Made by a program: the position numbers and the translations under genes. A stretch of 64,000 bases of DNA, from contig VRMN01000003.1 in NCBI GenBank assembly GCA_008690995.1, positions 1,488,001-1,552,000 of the forward strand. Direction: 5' to 3'. Of the stretch, positions 3,899 through 28,939 are shown in pieces. Numbering within the stretch: position 1 is the first letter of the stretch; every line of letters begins with the position of its first letter. The stretch is from Porphyridium purpureum (lineage: Eukaryota; Rhodophyta; Bangiophyceae; Porphyridiales; Porphyridiaceae). The notes under the pieces are model-generated. The model was not told where the DNA came from, ran no database searches, and was given only the letters and a program-made list of their open reading frames with translations.

Positions 3899-4555
3899 TT
3901 ACGGGGGTAGCTTGAGCTTCTGGCCCTTCGTCTTATTCAAAAAGTAGTAGTAGAAAAAATCTGCGTAGAGGGCTGTTTGGATCGTGCCGGCGATCCACTC
4001 AATCCAGTGCCTGTATCGCGGCTCTGTGAAAAACCTCCACACCCAATTGAGAAGGTAGAGCGCTCTGTAGCCGCCAAGACACGCAATGTAGTGCGACGTA
4101 AGATTCTCTACCTCGCCCGTCTTTTGCAAAAGATAGAGCTGCGGAATGATAGCGACCGATTCCATGTAAATGGAGAAAGCCCACACAATTTCAAAGAAGG
4201 TGTTTCGATAGTGAAACAAAGTGCCTGCCAGGCACGCGGGCACGATGAGGAACTCGACTCGGAACGTATCGTCCTTGACACTGTACGTTTGCTTGTACTT
4301 CTTCCTCATCAGGTACACGATATATGCGCTGGACGCGATGAACAGAATCTTGAACACTGTGTTGTACATGGTGAGGCCGCTGCGGAACGGGTTTGTGAAG
4401 AGCAGGTCCAAGTATCGCGTGCAGAACACCAGCAAGTACAACTGCTGCGTGCGCAGCGAAATCCCCGCCACATTCTTCGACGTCTTGATCTTCAGGGTCA
4501 GCACAAAAATGCTGAACACGTGCAGCAGATCACCCCCGAGCCGAAACAAGTTCAT
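3899..4555 (-). CDS. ERD2: ER lumen protein-retaining (KDEL) receptor
   Basis: The 218-residue product begins MNLFRLGGDLLHVFSI and carries ERD2 hallmarks: seven hydrophobic segments, the ..KNVAGISLRTQQLYLLV block, the RYLDL motif and the YFYYY-like end before a Lys-rich tail. It binds KDEL-type C-termini in the Golgi and returns the cargo to the ER in COPI vesicles. The frame extends 20 codons upstream, but the ATG at 4555 matches the universally conserved N-terminus. The tail lacks an obvious KKxx ending (KLKLPP). The Sec20-like protein in this window ends in KDEL and is a plausible ligand. Very secure. Confidence 0.96.
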   Translation of the reverse strand: MNLFRLGGDLLHVFSIFVLTLKIKTSKNVAGISLRTQQLYLLVFCTRYLDLLFTNPFRSGLTMYNTVFKILFIASSAYIVYLMRKKYKQTYSVKDDTFRVEFLIVPACLAGTLFHYRNTFFEIVWAFSIYMESVAIIPQLYLLQKTGEVENLTSHYIACLGGYRALYLLNWVWRFFTEPRYRHWIEWIAGTIQTALYADFFYYYFLNKTKGQKLKLPP

Positions 4556-12722: not shown

Positions 12723-15700
12723 ATGGAGGATGATCGGCTCGGTGAGCTTGTGGGACAGGCGCAGGCGCTTGTGGCTGCGGCGTGTATGCCGAATGCAGCG
12801 AGCGCGAGCGCTGATGAGGCACGGAGGGGCGTGCGCCGCCTCTCACAGCGCCTGAAAGAACTGAGCTTGGATGCACTTGAGTTTGACTTTCCGTTCGCGG
12901 AAAAGTACGGCGGAAGCGATGGCGCACAGATGTGGGAGCAGGAGCGGAAGCGATTCGAACTGGTTGCGCAGGAAGTGCGGCGAATGGAGCTGCAGCTGCG
13001 CGCGGTTGCACTGCAACGCGGCAAGATCCCCGCTGCGCCGTCGCATGATCTGTCCGCTCAGCTGGTTGCGCGGCCGTCGCCGAGCTCACTGAGCCAGCTG
13101 CAGCAGCAAAATACTCTACAGACAGTTGATGCGCAGTCCACCAACGGACAGACTACCCACGACAGTCCGGCGGATTTGCTTGAGAAGGAAATTGTAAGAA
13201 GCTTGCATCGCACGAGGCAAGTGGTGGCTGCTGAGCTCGCGCGTAGCAGCGCAGTGTCCGTAACGCTGGCGCAGGATAACCGTAATCTGACCGAGTCCCG
13301 AAAGCAATACGGCCAGTACAGCGCGACGTCTGATCGCGGAAAGAAGAAACTGCGCGGCGTAGCGATTCGTGAACATTTTGATTCATTCGTCATTGTTTCA
13401 TTCCTAGTACTCTTTTTTGCGGTTTGCGCATACGTCGTCCAGCAAAGGGTAAGAAATACATGGACCGTCAAACTAGGTACCAAGGTTGCGGCCCTCTTCG
13501 GTATTGGTCGAGGAAACGGCATGCTTGGCGACATTCCGTCTTGGGAGGATATGGAGGCGTCGCACGTCTTTTCAGAAGGGCCGATAGATATTGTACAAAG
13601 CAAACAGGATGGGCTCGGCAGTGTCCTTGGTGAAGCAGAGTCCCAAGGAACGCAAAGAGCCGACAGAATGGAGGCGGCACGTGACGGCATTACGCACAAG
13701 CCAGATTTGGACGCCAGGTTGGAAGATGATGACATGAGCTTGATATCTGAGCAAGACTTGAGCACTGGCCAAGGCCTAGGTGCGGAAATGTCAAAAGACG
13801 GGGCAGGATCGCAGGGGGATGTATTACATGACTATCGTGGTCTTGAAGACCCCGAGCGTGAGGCTGGTAGTGATCAGTCTCATCTAGGCGCTGAAAAACG
13901 AGACGCAATTGACTCTGATCCTGCCAAAGTGTCCTCAATGGGCGGCACAACTCCAGGTGAAGAGTACAGCAGTGATTCAGTCAGTTCATCGGGTACTGAA
14001 TCAGACGAAACCGGGATCGTAGGAGTGGAAGAGGATGATGATGAGGATTTCGGAAGCGAAGGCAACAGTATTTCTGCTGAGACTTTCGCTCAATTGAATG
14101 TGGGTGAGCATGTCAGGGAATCTTCGACGGCATGGACTGCGCTGGATGAGACCCCGACTTTAGAAGATCATGATTCACAGACAGCTTCTTCTGACGATCC
14201 TATGTGTCCAGGTGAAATGTCTGACGCATTCATGCATGCGAGAACTACAGTATTAGAAGGGCACGGACCTGAGCCTGTTGCATCGGCAGGCTCCGCCGAA
14301 TGGGAGGAACAAGACGAGCCACTTGGGCATGCCTTGAAGGATTCCGCACAATTGCGCGATCGCGAAGAAGATTGGGATGATGCAGGGATTCGAACGACGG
14401 CCACTGAAGCGGCCCGCTTGAGCAGTGTGGTCCTTTCACTGGAATCCGAAATGGAGGGCGGCGGAGAGGATGAAGAATCTGTCGCCTCTCCGGTTTCAAG
14501 CCAGTCAGATGCGAGCGTAGCCTCGGCTGAAGACGTTGCCACAAGGGAAGACACCGCATCGACAGAAGAAGCGAATTTGGCAGCTGCGTCCGACGCCACT
14601 GTTGCTGTGTCTGATAGGCACAATGACGAGGAAGACGAGGACGATTCCACGCAAGTGCCTGAAGGCATTCCCGACAGTGAGCAACCGAGCAACCAGGCAT
14701 CTGTAGAGAAGGCTGAGGCAAGTGTCCATGACGTTGACGCAAACGCTGTCCGTGATGATGCAGTGGCACTTGATAACCTAAATCTTGAAAATCGTGATGC
14801 GCGAGGCGAAGAATTACCGGATACCGCACCTGGAGTGCCCTCCGCATCGGTCGCAGGTGATGGTGAAGAAGTTTTTCCAGATTCATCTGCAGAGCAGCGC
14901 GAGTTCTTGAGCGATGGAGTGAAGAGCGCCGTCGAAACCCGAGACGAGCATGCCGTGCGCAGTGAAATAGGTGAAATTGAGCATTCGGAAGATGCTTTAG
15001 TAGGAGATGAACAGTGGCAGCAAGACGAAGTGAAAGAGCCCGATGAGAAGGAAGATTCATGTGCCGTCCCCGATGGAATCGCCGCTGGTGCTGAATATTT
15101 TCCTGCTTCTTCAGAGGGACCGGAGAATGAAGAAATTGCGTCATCGGACCCCCAAGCTACCTCTGTGAATAGTGCTAGCACGAACGAAGAGCGCGATGTG
15201 CCAGACGAAGACACTTTGAAGCCACATGCCGAAAGGACGCTTGCCCCGGCCGTACAGGTAGAGAACGGAGAGGGCGCTAAAGAGCAACATATCCCGGTGG
15301 AAGACGCCGACGAAGGTGCCACTGACACAGTAGCCAGAGATGATGAAGAAGAAGCTGGAGGAGATGAGAATGACGGTGATGTGGCGGACAAGGCAGCAAG
15401 CGTGGAAGCGAGTGCGTCTGAGGAGCAACGTTTGGACTCGCATGCGTCCCTTGAACCGAGAAATGGAAGGGCTGATGTTCTAGTCTTGTCGTCTCCACCA
15501 CCTGTGTCAATTGACGAGCTTTCTGAAGATCAGCATGAAGCAAGCGATGGCTCCTATGCGGGCTATGATAAAAATGCACGTGTCCGCCATGACAATGTTG
15601 CGATTGAGGAAAATGCTAGAGCTGCGGAAATGGTGCGCTCTTCCGGGAGTGACCAAGTCAGAAACACTGAGATTCCAACCTCTGCGGAGGCCGTAGCATC

Positions 15701-15917
15701 CGTTGCCGACTCGCTGAGCGAAGAACATGTGGTTGAGCAGCCGCATGAGGGCACGAATCTTGTGACTGATGATTCAGAAGAACGCGCAATTTCGCAGGAC
15801 GCGCTTGGCATTGATATGGAAGCTGAGCTACCTGCGCGTAGCGACGAAGCCGTTCCATCAGGACCGCCGCATTCAGAGATGGCCTCTGTACCATCAGATG
15901 TCAAAGACGAACTCTAA
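12723..15917 (+). CDS. Sec20/BNIP1-like SNARE with a very long acidic lumenal tail ending in KDEL
   Basis: Residues ~1-100 are helical with coiled-coil character. At ~150-216 a SNARE-like helix (EKEIVRSLHRTRQVVAAELA, then SRKQYGQYSATSDRGKKKLR) aligns in order with Sec20: the SLHRTRQV block, the regularly spaced small residues, and the Arg/Lys patch before the membrane. A single transmembrane segment follows at ~220-240 (SFVIVSFLVLFFAVCAYVV, then QQRV). Sec20 is an ER SNARE for Golgi-to-ER retrograde fusion. Known Sec20 proteins stop soon after the membrane, and yeast Sec20 ends in HDEL. Here ~815 further residues, rich in Glu, Asp and Ser, follow and end SDVKDEL. The open frame extends six codons upstream, but the first ATG is at 12723. 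The Sec20 call is by motif pattern; the KDEL is directly visible. Confidence 0.75.
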   Translation: MEDDRLGELVGQAQALVAAACMPNAASASADEARRGVRRLSQRLKELSLDALEFDFPFAEKYGGSDGAQMWEQERKRFELVAQEVRRMELQLRAVALQRGKIPAAPSHDLSAQLVARPSPSSLSQLQQQNTLQTVDAQSTNGQTTHDSPADLLEKEIVRSLHRTRQVVAAELARSSAVSVTLAQDNRNLTESRKQYGQYSATSDRGKKKLRGVAIREHFDSFVIVSFLVLFFAVCAYVVQQRVRNTWTVKLGTKVAALFGIGRGNGMLGDIPSWEDMEASHVFSEGPIDIVQSKQDGLGSVLGEAESQGTQRADRMEAARDGITHKPDLDARLEDDDMSLISEQDLSTGQGLGAEMSKDGAGSQGDVLHDYRGLEDPEREAGSDQSHLGAEKRDAIDSDPAKVSSMGGTTPGEEYSSDSVSSSGTESDETGIVGVEEDDDEDFGSEGNSISAETFAQLNVGEHVRESSTAWTALDETPTLEDHDSQTASSDDPMCPGEMSDAFMHARTTVLEGHGPEPVASAGSAEWEEQDEPLGHALKDSAQLRDREEDWDDAGIRTTATEAARLSSVVLSLESEMEGGGEDEESVASPVSSQSDASVASAEDVATREDTASTEEANLAAASDATVAVSDRHNDEEDEDDSTQVPEGIPDSEQPSNQASVEKAEASVHDVDANAVRDDAVALDNLNLENRDARGEELPDTAPGVPSASVAGDGEEVFPDSSAEQREFLSDGVKSAVETRDEHAVRSEIGEIEHSEDALVGDEQWQQDEVKEPDEKEDSCAVPDGIAAGAEYFPASSEGPENEEIASSDPQATSVNSASTNEERDVPDEDTLKPHAERTLAPAVQVENGEGAKEQHIPVEDADEGATDTVARDDEEEAGGDENDGDVADKAASVEASASEEQRLDSHASLEPRNGRADVLVLSSPPPVSIDELSEDQHEASDGSYAGYDKNARVRHDNVAIEENARAAEMVRSSGSDQVRNTEIPTSAEAVASVADSLSEEHVVEQPHEGTNLVTDDSEERAISQDALGIDMEAELPARSDEAVPSGPPHSEMASVPSDVKDEL

Positions 15918-16159: not shown

Positions 16160-17038
16160 ATGTTTGGACGGGCGCGTCGGTTCTTCGGCATGGAGGGTTA
16201 CAAGTCGGTGGCAGCGGAAGACGAGTACGCTGCGGCGTCGTCTGGATTGGGCAAGGCAAGCATGGGCAAGGGCCCGGGTGCTGGCGCAAACGCGTCAGCC
16301 TCGGTGGAGCCCGCGTTCTCGGGGGATGGCCTGAGCGACTTTGACATCGGGACGTGCGTGGGTACCTCGAGCGTCGCCGTGCGCCTCGGCTTTATTCGAA
16401 AGGTGTACGGAATCCTCTCTGTGCAGCTCGCGCTCACCTTTGTGATTTCCTTGGCATTCATGCTGGTGACGCCCATGCGCCACTTCATCATGGCAAACCA
16501 GTGGTTCGTCATGGTGAACATGGTTGCCACGTTTGGCCTGATTATTGCGCTGATGTGTTTCAAGGACCACCATCCGCTCAACATGAAGCTTCTGATGGGT
16601 TTTACGGCATGTGAGAGTGTTCTGGTCGCGTCCGTTTGCGCAGCGTACGCGGAAGTCGGGCTCGGCTATGTGGTCGCCGAGGCGTTTTTCATCACCATGT
16701 GTGTGTTTGGTGGTTTGACAGCCTACTGCTTCATCTCGAAGAAAGACTTCTCCTTCCTGGGCGGATTCCTGTACGCGTCGCTGACGTCTCTCCTGCTTGC
16801 TAGCATCGTGAACATTTTCTTGTACATGTTCCACTCACCGTTGGCAAACTTTATGAACTTTGCCATCGCATGCTTTGGCTCGCTGCTGTTTTCCGGGTAC
16901 ATTCTGTTCGATACGAGCAACATCATCCACTCGTATTCGGCAGACCAGTACATCGAGGCGGCTGTGGCACTTTACCTTGACCTGATCAACTTGTTCCTGT
17001 ACATTTTGCGAATTCTGGGCTCGCGTGATCGCGACTAG
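16160..17038 (+). CDS. Bax inhibitor-1/Lifeguard (TMBIM) family membrane protein
   Basis: The 292-residue protein has a ~60-residue cytosolic N-terminus and seven hydrophobic segments. The order FIRKVYGILSVQLALTF, then ...FSLLGGFLYASL-like block, then LFSGYILFDTSNIIH and ALYLDLINLFLYILRILG is diagnostic for the BI-1/LFG superfamily, and it looks closer to LFG/TMBIM1-4 than to classic BI-1. These proteins act in ER or Golgi membranes on Ca2+ leak and cell-death control. The start MFGRARRFFGMEGYK at 16160 was chosen because the 60 upstream in-frame codons look like leader sequence. The gene follows the Sec20-like gene in the same direction with ~240 bp between. Confidence 0.92.
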   Translation: MFGRARRFFGMEGYKSVAAEDEYAAASSGLGKASMGKGPGAGANASASVEPAFSGDGLSDFDIGTCVGTSSVAVRLGFIRKVYGILSVQLALTFVISLAFMLVTPMRHFIMANQWFVMVNMVATFGLIIALMCFKDHHPLNMKLLMGFTACESVLVASVCAAYAEVGLGYVVAEAFFITMCVFGGLTAYCFISKKDFSFLGGFLYASLTSLLLASIVNIFLYMFHSPLANFMNFAIACFGSLLFSGYILFDTSNIIHSYSADQYIEAAVALYLDLINLFLYILRILGSRDRD

Positions 17039-25064: not shown

Positions 25065-27173
25065 TCATTTCGTGATGCTTTTGAGATGGTCCGGGAGCTT
25101 AATGATTCCACCATGTTTACCCCGCTCGAGGGTCTGCACATACGCTTGCGCGAGAGCAGTTACATCTGGATGGTTCCACGCTGCGCGCTCATCGCCAAGC
25201 TCTTTGATCTTTTGCAGCCGCAACCTTTTCCACGCCGCATAGACCTTTCCGATGTCAGATGACTCAGCAAGCACTTCAGGCGATCGCAGATGCGCTTGCA
25301 CTTTGGTCAGCCACGTTCCCTCAGTAGTCTGTGACGTGGGCTCATTTGGACTTCTCAATTCATTCGTAATTCCAGCAAAATGGGTCGGAGCCCTGTACTC
25401 GGGCTGTTCGTTATTGGGCTGGAAAGCGCGAACCACCATGGCGTCCCAGCACACAAAGTATAAATCACCATCAAGATCTCCTCCCCCAATCATTTCTGGT
25501 ATAGGCTTGGTGTGCTCAATCCCGTCAACGGCCGAAGAAAATATCAAAGCACCGAACGGCAAGGATTCCAGCCAGTCCCAGTCTTCAACGGACATGTCGC
25601 ATGGCCTGGTCGTGAGGCACGGAAGGAGCCGCAGATCACTCAGCTGCGTCACTGGAATCCTAGTCACAAGCACGTGGTCCGATGCGTACATAGTCGTGTT
25701 CAGTCCTGTCACATATACAACGCCCGGAGGAAATCCCGTGACCGGCTGCCCGGCACCCATGAGATAGGCATCATGTCTCCTACTTGAGTCACTGACTAGA
25801 TTACTGTGCACACCCGACGCACGGAGGGCGTCACCAATCATGTCACTGATCGGCTTACGCACAATCTCGGGTACCGGTGAATGCTTTTCTTCATGTTCGC
25901 TGCGTGGAGAAAGAAAGCGCCCGATCGTAACATTTGTTTGAGAAGGAGCGATGCCACCAGAAGTGACCAGCAGCATCGCCCAATCCGCAGCATTGGACTT
26001 CATGACACTTGGACCGACCTTCCGCATCGATGGTGATAAGAGAATTTTGCCGCTACCCGGACGCCGCATGAGCACGCCTTTGAAAACACCCAGACGTGGC
26101 GCAACAACACGCACCTGGATACAAACCAAACGAGCAGCAGCATGAGCACTCATGCCGAGCCGCTCTTCGAGAAACGCATCCGAAATTGTTCCGCAGCCGT
26201 CCTCCATGAGAGTAACGCCATCCAATGCTGTCATCGGATGTTCCTCGACCTCAAAGTCGTCGCAGAGAAGATCCAGAAATGGGCCTAGTTTAGAGTTCGA
26301 CGTTGATTGGAGAAGCTCAAGTCGCGAAGCAGCTTTTCGAGCACTGGGTAAAGACGCAAAATCTGCCACCCCTTCCAGTGCCCGAGACAGCGAAATGTCT
26401 GGAACTCCGCAACCAGCAATGGCAACATACACCCATCTGATTACTTTCTTACCAGTCATATGTTGATGCTGCTTGGAGCTTACAAGCTCATATGTCATGC
26501 CATTCTCTTTGATTTTGACCGCAGGGGCCTCCTTGGTACCTGAGCAGGTTTCGAATATCCTGATCGCTCGGTGGCCAAAGAACAGCGTCAAGAAGCATCC
26601 ATTCTCCGACTTCTGCAGGTGCGTGCATGATATTTGAAATCCTCCGTACTGCTCTTCCAAATTCTTAACTTGTTCTGGATATTGTCCTTGAAGTTGCCAA
26701 GCTGGTTTGCGCGGAACGGCACCTGGACGATGGGCAAGGCATTCACAAGATTCATCATGATCATGTCGCGAAAGTTGTCTTCGAGCTTCGACAATATCAT
26801 GTGCTATGTGGTCTTTTGTGCGACGGGAAGGCCCGCCCGTCGCTTTGCTCACAGGCAAATTTTCTGCAACAATTAGCTCTCGCAATTCACTCACCTTGAG
26901 CCGGAGCAAACCCTTGATTTCGTCTGCGTCATTTCTCCGTGTCACAGAGCTTGTTGGCACCGGTACTCTGGCGCTTGTGGCCTGGAGCGCCCCTTCTTCT
27001 GACACAGAAGAGCTTGTCGTCTTCATTCCGACGAGAATTTCACGCGCAATGTCTTTTTTAGTACGCCTGGCGGAGCCACCAGTATTCTTTTTGACGTCCA
27101 AACCATGAGCATCAATCATCGATACCAAATCACGAAGCGGCATGCGCTCTAGCGTGGCAAGTTCCAAGTCCAT
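25065..27173 (-). CDS. Cellular RNA-dependent RNA polymerase (RDR) with two N-terminal SAP-like repeats
   Basis: The 702-residue protein carries the RDR catalytic motif GGGDLDGDLYFVCWD (~562), the DxDGD signature of eukaryotic RNA-silencing polymerases. Flanking it are family blocks such as TLMEDGCGTISDAFL, LGVFKGVLMRRPGSGKILLS and VLVTRIPVTQLSDLRLLPCL. These enzymes copy aberrant RNA into double strands for Dicer. The N-terminus holds two ~41-residue repeats, residues ~7-47 and ~88-128, both reading L..LR.L....L.V.K.TGG..RRTK..IA..I, the SAP/LEM-like pattern. The RRM-like N-terminus of plant RDRs is absent and the protein is shorter than usual (~1100). Upstream frame has no ATG; 27173 is the first. 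It is followed downstream by C2H2-family relics. Confidence 0.88.
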   Translation of the reverse strand: MDLELATLERMPLRDLVSMIDAHGLDVKKNTGGSARRTKKDIAREILVGMKTTSSSVSEEGALQATSARVPVPTSSVTRRNDADEIKGLLRLKVSELRELIVAENLPVSKATGGPSRRTKDHIAHDIVEARRQLSRHDHDESCECLAHRPGAVPRKPAWQLQGQYPEQVKNLEEQYGGFQISCTHLQKSENGCFLTLFFGHRAIRIFETCSGTKEAPAVKIKENGMTYELVSSKQHQHMTGKKVIRWVYVAIAGCGVPDISLSRALEGVADFASLPSARKAASRLELLQSTSNSKLGPFLDLLCDDFEVEEHPMTALDGVTLMEDGCGTISDAFLEERLGMSAHAAARLVCIQVRVVAPRLGVFKGVLMRRPGSGKILLSPSMRKVGPSVMKSNAADWAMLLVTSGGIAPSQTNVTIGRFLSPRSEHEEKHSPVPEIVRKPISDMIGDALRASGVHSNLVSDSSRRHDAYLMGAGQPVTGFPPGVVYVTGLNTTMYASDHVLVTRIPVTQLSDLRLLPCLTTRPCDMSVEDWDWLESLPFGALIFSSAVDGIEHTKPIPEMIGGGDLDGDLYFVCWDAMVVRAFQPNNEQPEYRAPTHFAGITNELRSPNEPTSQTTEGTWLTKVQAHLRSPEVLAESSDIGKVYAAWKRLRLQKIKELGDERAAWNHPDVTALAQAYVQTLERGKHGGIIKLPDHLKSITK

Positions 27174-27929: not shown

Positions 27930-28829
27930 TCAGGATAATTTTGCTTTCTTAATAAAGTCACGAAGGTAGGCTGTCTGAAGATATCCAGCGACGCACAGTA
28001 CTGCACACGCAATGACCGATGAGAGCATGACTCCTCGCTTCGTCCGCTCATTCAACTCGCGGATGCGTTCTGCGCGCTCGGTGGCCACCGAAATCTGCAC
28101 TGACAGCTCCTTGAGCTCGTCTTGAAGCCGTTGCAATTCGATTTCCAAGGGACCTAGGTGACTTTTGGCCGCAAGTGCCTGATAATCCTTTCCCTGCACA
28201 CTCGTGTGTAGTGTCAGCGATACCATGCGCGGTGGGATGGCCGACCCTTCCAATTCTGCGTCACCTGCGTGCACGCGGGTACGGCCAGACTTGCGGCGCA
28301 CACGAAATACTTGTAGGCTTACGCACAAGCGGTAGTAGAGGTCCTGTTCGTACAGACGCATGTCTGCAAACTCGTCCGGTGCGGTGTAATCCGTCCATTC
28401 GTTACCGGCGCCTTGAACCGCCGCGTCTGCCACCACGGGATCTGCCACGAACGTGAAAAGCGCGGGCTCACCTGAGCTCAGATTGAGAAGGACGAGAGGC
28501 TCTAAGCCACGTACCACATATTGGTTTCCAGTGTGAACAACATGCTCCACTACCAACTCGACCTCGGTCCGGAGCTCTTTACCGAATGTGCGCGGCGCGG
28601 ACACAGGCATGTCCCCATTCAAGCTCTTCTCGGATATTATTGTCACTCGCACCTCACCGCGTGCCGTCGACTGCGGCGTCACCGCGGCGTACAAGCATTG
28701 CGTCTGGTCAAGTTCGAGCCGGACGGAAAGGGCGGACGCAAACCCGTGCCGCCAAATGGCCACCACCAGAGCGACAAGAAGCGGGAAACCAGCGACTCGG
28801 TGAAGTCTCTGTCTCCTCTGGCTGTCCAT
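27930..28829 (-). CDS. p24/TMED family cargo receptor
   Basis: The 299-residue protein starts MDSQRRQRLHRVAGFPLLVA, a cleavable signal. A GOLD-like lumenal domain follows, expanded by a low-complexity insert. A coiled coil (LGPLEIELQRLQDELKELSV) then leads to NERTKRGVMLSSVIACAVLC as the single membrane span and a short cytosolic tail, LRDFIKKAKLS. The coiled-coil/span/tail order and the aromatic residue before basic residues are p24 hallmarks. The final KAKLS is a KxKxx COPI-binding signal. p24 proteins recycle between ER and Golgi and pack cargo into vesicles. The valyl-tRNA synthetase gene lies 110 bp upstream in the same direction. Confidence 0.9.
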   Translation of the reverse strand: MDSQRRQRLHRVAGFPLLVALVVAIWRHGFASALSVRLELDQTQCLYAAVTPQSTARGEVRVTIISEKSLNGDMPVSAPRTFGKELRTEVELVVEHVVHTGNQYVVRGLEPLVLLNLSSGEPALFTFVADPVVADAAVQGAGNEWTDYTAPDEFADMRLYEQDLYYRLCVSLQVFRVRRKSGRTRVHAGDAELEGSAIPPRMVSLTLHTSVQGKDYQALAAKSHLGPLEIELQRLQDELKELSVQISVATERAERIRELNERTKRGVMLSSVIACAVLCVAGYLQTAYLRDFIKKAKLS

Positions 28830-28939
28830 AGAAGGCCGTGGGCTGGGCCGCCCAGCTCGTTGGCCACCCCACGCACCTTCGTCCACCACAACTCGATCCG
28901 TGCAATCTGACGCAATCGACATAGATGTTCTATATTTGT

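Follow-up and report, generated by a model that had tools for sequence, protein, structure and literature searches.

A Sec20-type SNARE of Porphyridium purpureum with a long acidic, predicted lumenal tail that ends in KDEL

Yeast Sec20 has a cytosolic SNARE part, one membrane span and a lumenal part of roughly 90 residues, and animal BNIP1 ends just past its span and carries no KDEL. Calreticulin of other organisms and GRP170, which are soluble chaperones, have an acidic stretch ahead of their KDEL. The title of Sweet and Pelham (1992; cited in PMC7465790) concerns retrieval of S. cerevisiae Sec20 through the HDEL system and calls the protein a glycoprotein. K/HDEL retrieval is listed as a signature of ER SNAREs in an excerpt of a 2018 phylogenetic paper (PMC6143360), and an excerpt of PMC4206994 places BNIP1/Sec20 in a set of ER SNAREs with syntaxin 18, Use1/p31 and Sec22b.

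We analysed a stretch of 64,000 nucleotides of P. purpureum DNA (the window), which lies on contig C43 (5,717,864 bases) of a genome of 22,164,627 bases in 46 contigs. Genome searches were run exon by exon, so that match counts are lower bounds. The features considered here are as follows.

12723..15917, plus strand: Sec20-type Qb-SNARE with a long C-terminal tail (1064 aa open frame, Pfam Sec20 PF03908)
12723..13016, plus strand: N-terminal region, residues 1-98, predicted three-helix domain (low-confidence model)
13182..13451, plus strand: Sec20 profile match covering the SNARE motif and the membrane span, residues 154-243 (Pfam PF03908)
13383..13439, plus strand: membrane span, residues 221-239 (Kyte-Doolittle 2.72; the protein has no second such segment)
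13452..15914, plus strand: predicted lumenal tail, residues 244-1064, acidic and predicted to be disordered (composition, charge-hydropathy, no Pfam domain)
15903..15914, plus strand: C-terminal KDEL (AAAGACGAACTC, then TAA)
3899..4555, minus strand: KDEL receptor, ERD2 (Pfam PF00810, 196.7 bits)

The P. purpureum protein resembles yeast Sec20 in its order of cytosolic SNARE part, single span and lumenal end. It differs in that the lumenal part comprises 821 residues instead of roughly 90, is strongly acidic, and closes with KDEL where yeast has HDEL. In contrast to animal BNIP1, which stops just past the span without KDEL, it has both a tail and a KDEL. It shares an acidic stretch ahead of KDEL with calreticulin and GRP170; however, those are soluble chaperones, while this is a membrane SNARE whose tail is far longer and less dense in acidic residues. 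By the 1992 title (in PMC7465790) the yeast protein likewise combines the Sec20 family with an H/KDEL retrieval signal and is a glycoprotein, whereas the P. purpureum tail has no sequon. Family and, according to the excerpt of PMC4206994, membership of the ER SNARE set are shared with BNIP1. No title on a long lumenal Sec20 tail or on Porphyridium SNAREs was among the literature matches listed, from a collection with few subscription journals. The length and acidity of the tail are new; H/KDEL retrieval of Sec20 is known.

The frame runs from the ATG at 12723 to the stop ending at 15917 and holds 1064 codons with zero in-frame stops by open-frame reading. An in-frame TGA starts 27 bases 5' of the ATG, with no ATG in the interval. 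Residues 154-243 matched Pfam PF03908 at 37.1 bits, above the curated cut-off of 27, over positions 3-92 of the 92-position profile, and by this match the frame is a member of the Sec20 family. It was the sole Sec20 match found in the genome. A sequence-only reading had proposed a Sec20-like SNARE at exactly these coordinates, and the profile search bears out that identity. Residues 1-98 gave three predicted helices in a low-confidence model, whose fold matches included the N-domains of Vti1 and syntaxins, tied with designed bundles; a resemblance to the N-domains of Vti1 and syntaxin 6/10 is perhaps indicated by this model and is not counted as proof. Three homologue searches, whose queries were the full-length protein, residues 1-256 and residues 140-262, returned only the protein itself or nothing; in one of them, scoring was restricted to the 7994 candidates sharing most words. 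A PDB sequence search at E up to 10 gave two matches, the best at 0.55, both unrelated by name. The only NCBIfam match found (11.8 bits against a cut-off of 1400) was taken as chance.

Residues 221-239 formed the best 19-residue hydropathy window (mean 2.72), and no window starting outside 200-260 exceeded 1.6; the best window in the tail reached 0.65. This single hydrophobic segment, previously placed near residues 220-240, sits directly C-terminal to the SNARE motif, as in the Sec20 family. The charge flanking the span was +3 before and +4 after, and topology is not decided by local charge. SNARE topology would put the C-terminus in the lumen, from which we infer that the tail is lumenal.

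The tail comprises 821 residues, with E, A, D and S making up 13.6%, 11.8%, 11.6% and 11.6%, respectively, in agreement with the Glu/Asp/Ser-rich tail of about 815 residues described earlier. It contains 95 D and 112 E (207 acidic residues) against 17 K and 36 R (53 basic residues), a net charge of -154, and its acidic density is 25% overall and at most 37% in any 60 residues. By its charge and hydropathy it is predicted to be disordered (-0.197 relative to the charge-hydropathy boundary), and no Pfam domain matched it at E up to 1. Two cysteines are present, at 495 and 780. N-glycosylation sequons numbered zero against 3.4 expected (P 0.024), which is weakly compatible with a lumenal chain kept without glycans. 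After base shuffling of the tail DNA, 4.7% of codons were stops; at that rate the probability that 821 codons stay open is about 5e-18. Read in its two remaining forward frames, the tail DNA contained 30 and 83 stops. An origin of the tail by repeat growth or duplication was rejected, the in-frame repeats amounting to two copies of 8 bases and two chance-like two-copy families. A second copy of the tail was not found in the genome. The three homologue searches yielded no relative that would speak for conservation of the tail or of its KDEL.

Codon usage, in contrast, calls for caution. Synonymous codon preference was strong in residues 1-216 (z 6.3) and absent in the tail (z 0.6). Third-position GC was 0.46 in the tail; the 16 reference genes of the window, chosen by their Pfam matches, had values of 0.58-0.75. 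We also cut 25 other frames of the window into 120-codon pieces (n=102) and scored these with left-one-out training; their mean was 0.034 and their minimum -0.072, and the 31 disorder-rich pieces among them averaged 0.009. The six tail pieces ranged from -0.026 to -0.075, close to or under the lowest of the 102, a shift in the same direction as that of the disorder-rich pieces and more extreme. Codon preference was normal up to about residue 240 and lost beyond it, with scores of 0.042 for codons 181-240 versus -0.088 for codons 241-300. This usage may mean that selection is weak, that the tail grew recently or that its translation hardly needs to be efficient; together with the absence of found relatives, it suggests a fast-evolving disordered region, one that is weakly constrained. 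Three antisense frames opposite Sec20, with 225, 299 and 166 codons, scored -0.040, -0.017 and -0.038, respectively, compared with 0.02 to 0.12 for the 16 reference genes and -0.042 for the tail. As the tail scored as low as the antisense frames, the codon score alone cannot separate them and frame length decides; on frame length the antisense frames were judged non-coding.

The protein ends in VPSDVKDEL, which agrees with the SDVKDEL ending seen earlier. Given the composition of the tail, the probability of KDEL at its extreme end is 1.7e-5, and elsewhere in the tail DEL occurs once, as IDEL at 930-933. Three genome pattern searches for KDEL-type endings gave 3, 31 and 21 matches, respectively (55 rows, 52 distinct), with patterns that also admit other residues and Trp for the stop and leave the Arg codons CGN uncovered; one row reads Trp at the stop position and was assigned no locus. 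Reversed-pattern controls gave 3, 25 and 19 matches, and because these raw counts are similar, the argument for KDEL rests on long frames. The translated loci gave 23 ends, namely 6 KDEL, 11 HDEL, 4 NDEL and 2 RDEL. Frames of at least 200 codons stood ahead of four of the six KDEL ends, with matches to Sec20, HSP70, Thioredoxin and Calreticulin. The HSP70 match (24.8 bits, here named GRP170-like) covers the C-terminal part only, and the Thioredoxin frame matches in two stretches (PDI). Such frames also preceded 5 of the 11 HDEL ends, with matches to HSP90, cytochrome b5, M20 peptidase, a phospholipase family (below its cut-off) and no family. As the other three KDEL-ended long frames match chaperone families, KDEL is meaningful in P. 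purpureum, and among long frames it appears, from these family matches, to accompany ER-type proteins. A frame of more than 450 codons at locus L027 (1504-3015, minus strand) ends in NDEL and had no Pfam match at 0.001.

One KDEL-receptor match was found in the genome, at 3899-4555 on the minus strand, in the same window as Sec20, as the sequence-only reading had noted. Its distance of 8.2 kb from Sec20 has a chance of 7e-4 for one named gene, a post hoc figure that was given no weight. That reading had inferred from the ending and the receptor gene that Sec20 itself is retrieved by the KDEL receptor; a link of the lumenal state to retrograde fusion was what it did not know to have been described. 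The KDEL and the receptor gene are confirmed and would allow such retrieval, which is known in principle, since the 1992 title (in PMC7465790) deals with HDEL retrieval of yeast Sec20.

Sec20 family, single span, length and charge of the tail, KDEL, receptor gene and the lack of comparable tails on the other anchored SNAREs found can be read from the DNA, while topology, retrieval, ER residence and a bulk role of the tail are deduced from them. The protein is probably an ER-resident Sec20 with a disordered lumenal tail of 821 residues that acts as bulk and with retrieval through KDEL. The N-terminal part and SNARE motif would face the cytosol, one span would cross the ER membrane, and the tail would lie in the lumen. 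Most likely it would do the ordinary job of Sec20, receiving Golgi-derived vesicles with Use1, an ER syntaxin and Sec22. As in the description of yeast Sec20, molecules that leaked to the Golgi would be bound by the KDEL receptor and sent back. The tail would most likely serve as bulk, a long, negative, unfolded chain that small ER-exit vesicles would not readily take up, and would present KDEL in the lumen, with its exact letters little constrained.

The frame reads through the SNARE part and the tail without need of an intron; an intron between the two had been named as something that would overturn the proposal. A GTAAG motif at 13449, immediately past the span and near the start of the drop in codon score, is nevertheless a possible, rare splice site. 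If it were used, most transcripts would encode a short Sec20 of the ordinary kind, with the long form as a minor product. Four of the five listed pyrimidine-rich acceptor candidates would yield proteins of 245-259 residues, and the fifth would yield 712 residues with the KDEL end kept. However, GTAAG occurs twice, while equal base frequencies predict about three occurrences of a five-base word in 3,192 bases. A frame of 821 codons is unlikely to stay open without translation, and a short spliced Sec20 would leave the KDEL without a reason, so that we consider this reading very unlikely. It is also quite unlikely that the KDEL is coincidental, with the tail a functionless acidic extension and ER location provided by the span or by partners alone. 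Human BNIP1 works at the ER without KDEL, which favours this explanation, and the codon usage of the tail and the absence of found relatives suggest a weak constraint that would fit it; the chance of a terminal KDEL given the tail composition (1.7e-5) argues against it. The Sec20 family is, moreover, known for HDEL in yeast from the 1992 title (in PMC7465790).

A further role for the tail, put forward in the sequence-only reading, is that of a membrane-tethered, low-affinity buffer or sensor of calcium or other cations through which the state of the lumen would bear on how much fusion SNARE is available; it is unlikely, although the net charge of -154 over 821 residues would suit it. The KDEL-ended calreticulin-family protein at locus L042 (1504-3015, minus strand) has 19 acidic and 10 basic residues among its last 100 (it is the one calreticulin-family protein examined); as it has no strongly acidic C-domain, an acidic calcium store may be supplied from elsewhere. 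The GRP170-like protein, on the other hand, does have an acidic end, with 19 acidic and 1 basic among its last 40 residues. The acidic density of the tail (25% overall, at most 37% in any 60 residues) falls below that of the calreticulin C-domain, and the tail has no Pfam domain. A Bax-inhibitor-1 family gene lies next downstream on the same strand (16160-17038, plus strand), 242 bases past the Sec20 stop, and this family includes ER calcium-leak proteins; adjacency, however, means little in a compact genome. More elaborate still, and highly improbable, is a scheme in which the tail holds cations in place of the acidic domain missing from the KDEL-ended calreticulin-family protein, while leaked chaperones and the KDEL of Sec20 vie for the one receptor found. 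Under load Sec20 would then be retrieved less well, and the capacity for retrograde fusion would track the state of the lumen.

The tail was compared with the ends of the other SNAREs found in the genome. Searches with four SNARE families gave 6, 5, 5 and 1 matches, respectively, or 17 besides Sec20. Membrane anchors were present in 14 of the 17, and all 14 ended 0-8 residues past the span, its position being taken as the best 17-residue hydrophobic window. With L059 and L060, which look alike, counted once, these are 13 distinct proteins. The remaining three (L064, L065 and L069) lacked a span or had stops that interrupt the frame. Judged from these frames, the long lumenal part appears unique to Sec20 among the SNAREs found in the genome. 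The partner SNARE Use1 was found, with an ordinary end of 6 residues after its span, and R-SNAREs were found, none of them assigned as Sec22. Genome searches for RINT1/Tip20 and for the syntaxin-18 N-domain, run with no positive control, found nothing. As the Dsl1 complex is described as widespread, Archaeplastida included, in an excerpt of a survey (PMC8290106), this result may be a limit of the search. L059 and L060, which lie on contigs C8 and C15, are both SNARE frames of 265 residues and have identical score, match position and C-terminal residues; they are either a recent duplication or an assembly duplicate. The frame of L065, a synaptobrevin-type match, is broken by TAA and TGA near the membrane-anchor end, and an intron, a pseudogene or a shortened SNARE are alternatives.

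If the mature protein retains the tail and this lies in the lumen, a core SNARE can bear a chain there that is over three times as long as its cytosolic part (821 versus about 220 residues). The usual tail-anchor insertion route handles tails too short for such a chain, so entry into the membrane is presumably co-translational. If this is true, it asks what the lumenal bulk does during fusion, and whether Sec20 stays in the ER through this bulk or through retrieval by its KDEL. Expression of transgenes has been reported in P. purpureum, according to the title of PMC10866757.

Two other frames were observed in the window. The frame at 27930-28922 (minus strand) matched the p24 (EMP24/GP25L) family from its residue 227 onward, over positions 84-182 of the 182-position profile only, and this partial coverage suggests that the first half is divergent or lies in an exon further upstream. 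The frame at 25065-27173 (minus strand) matched PF05183 at 87.3 bits, which we take to be the cellular RNA-silencing type of RNA-dependent RNA polymerase.
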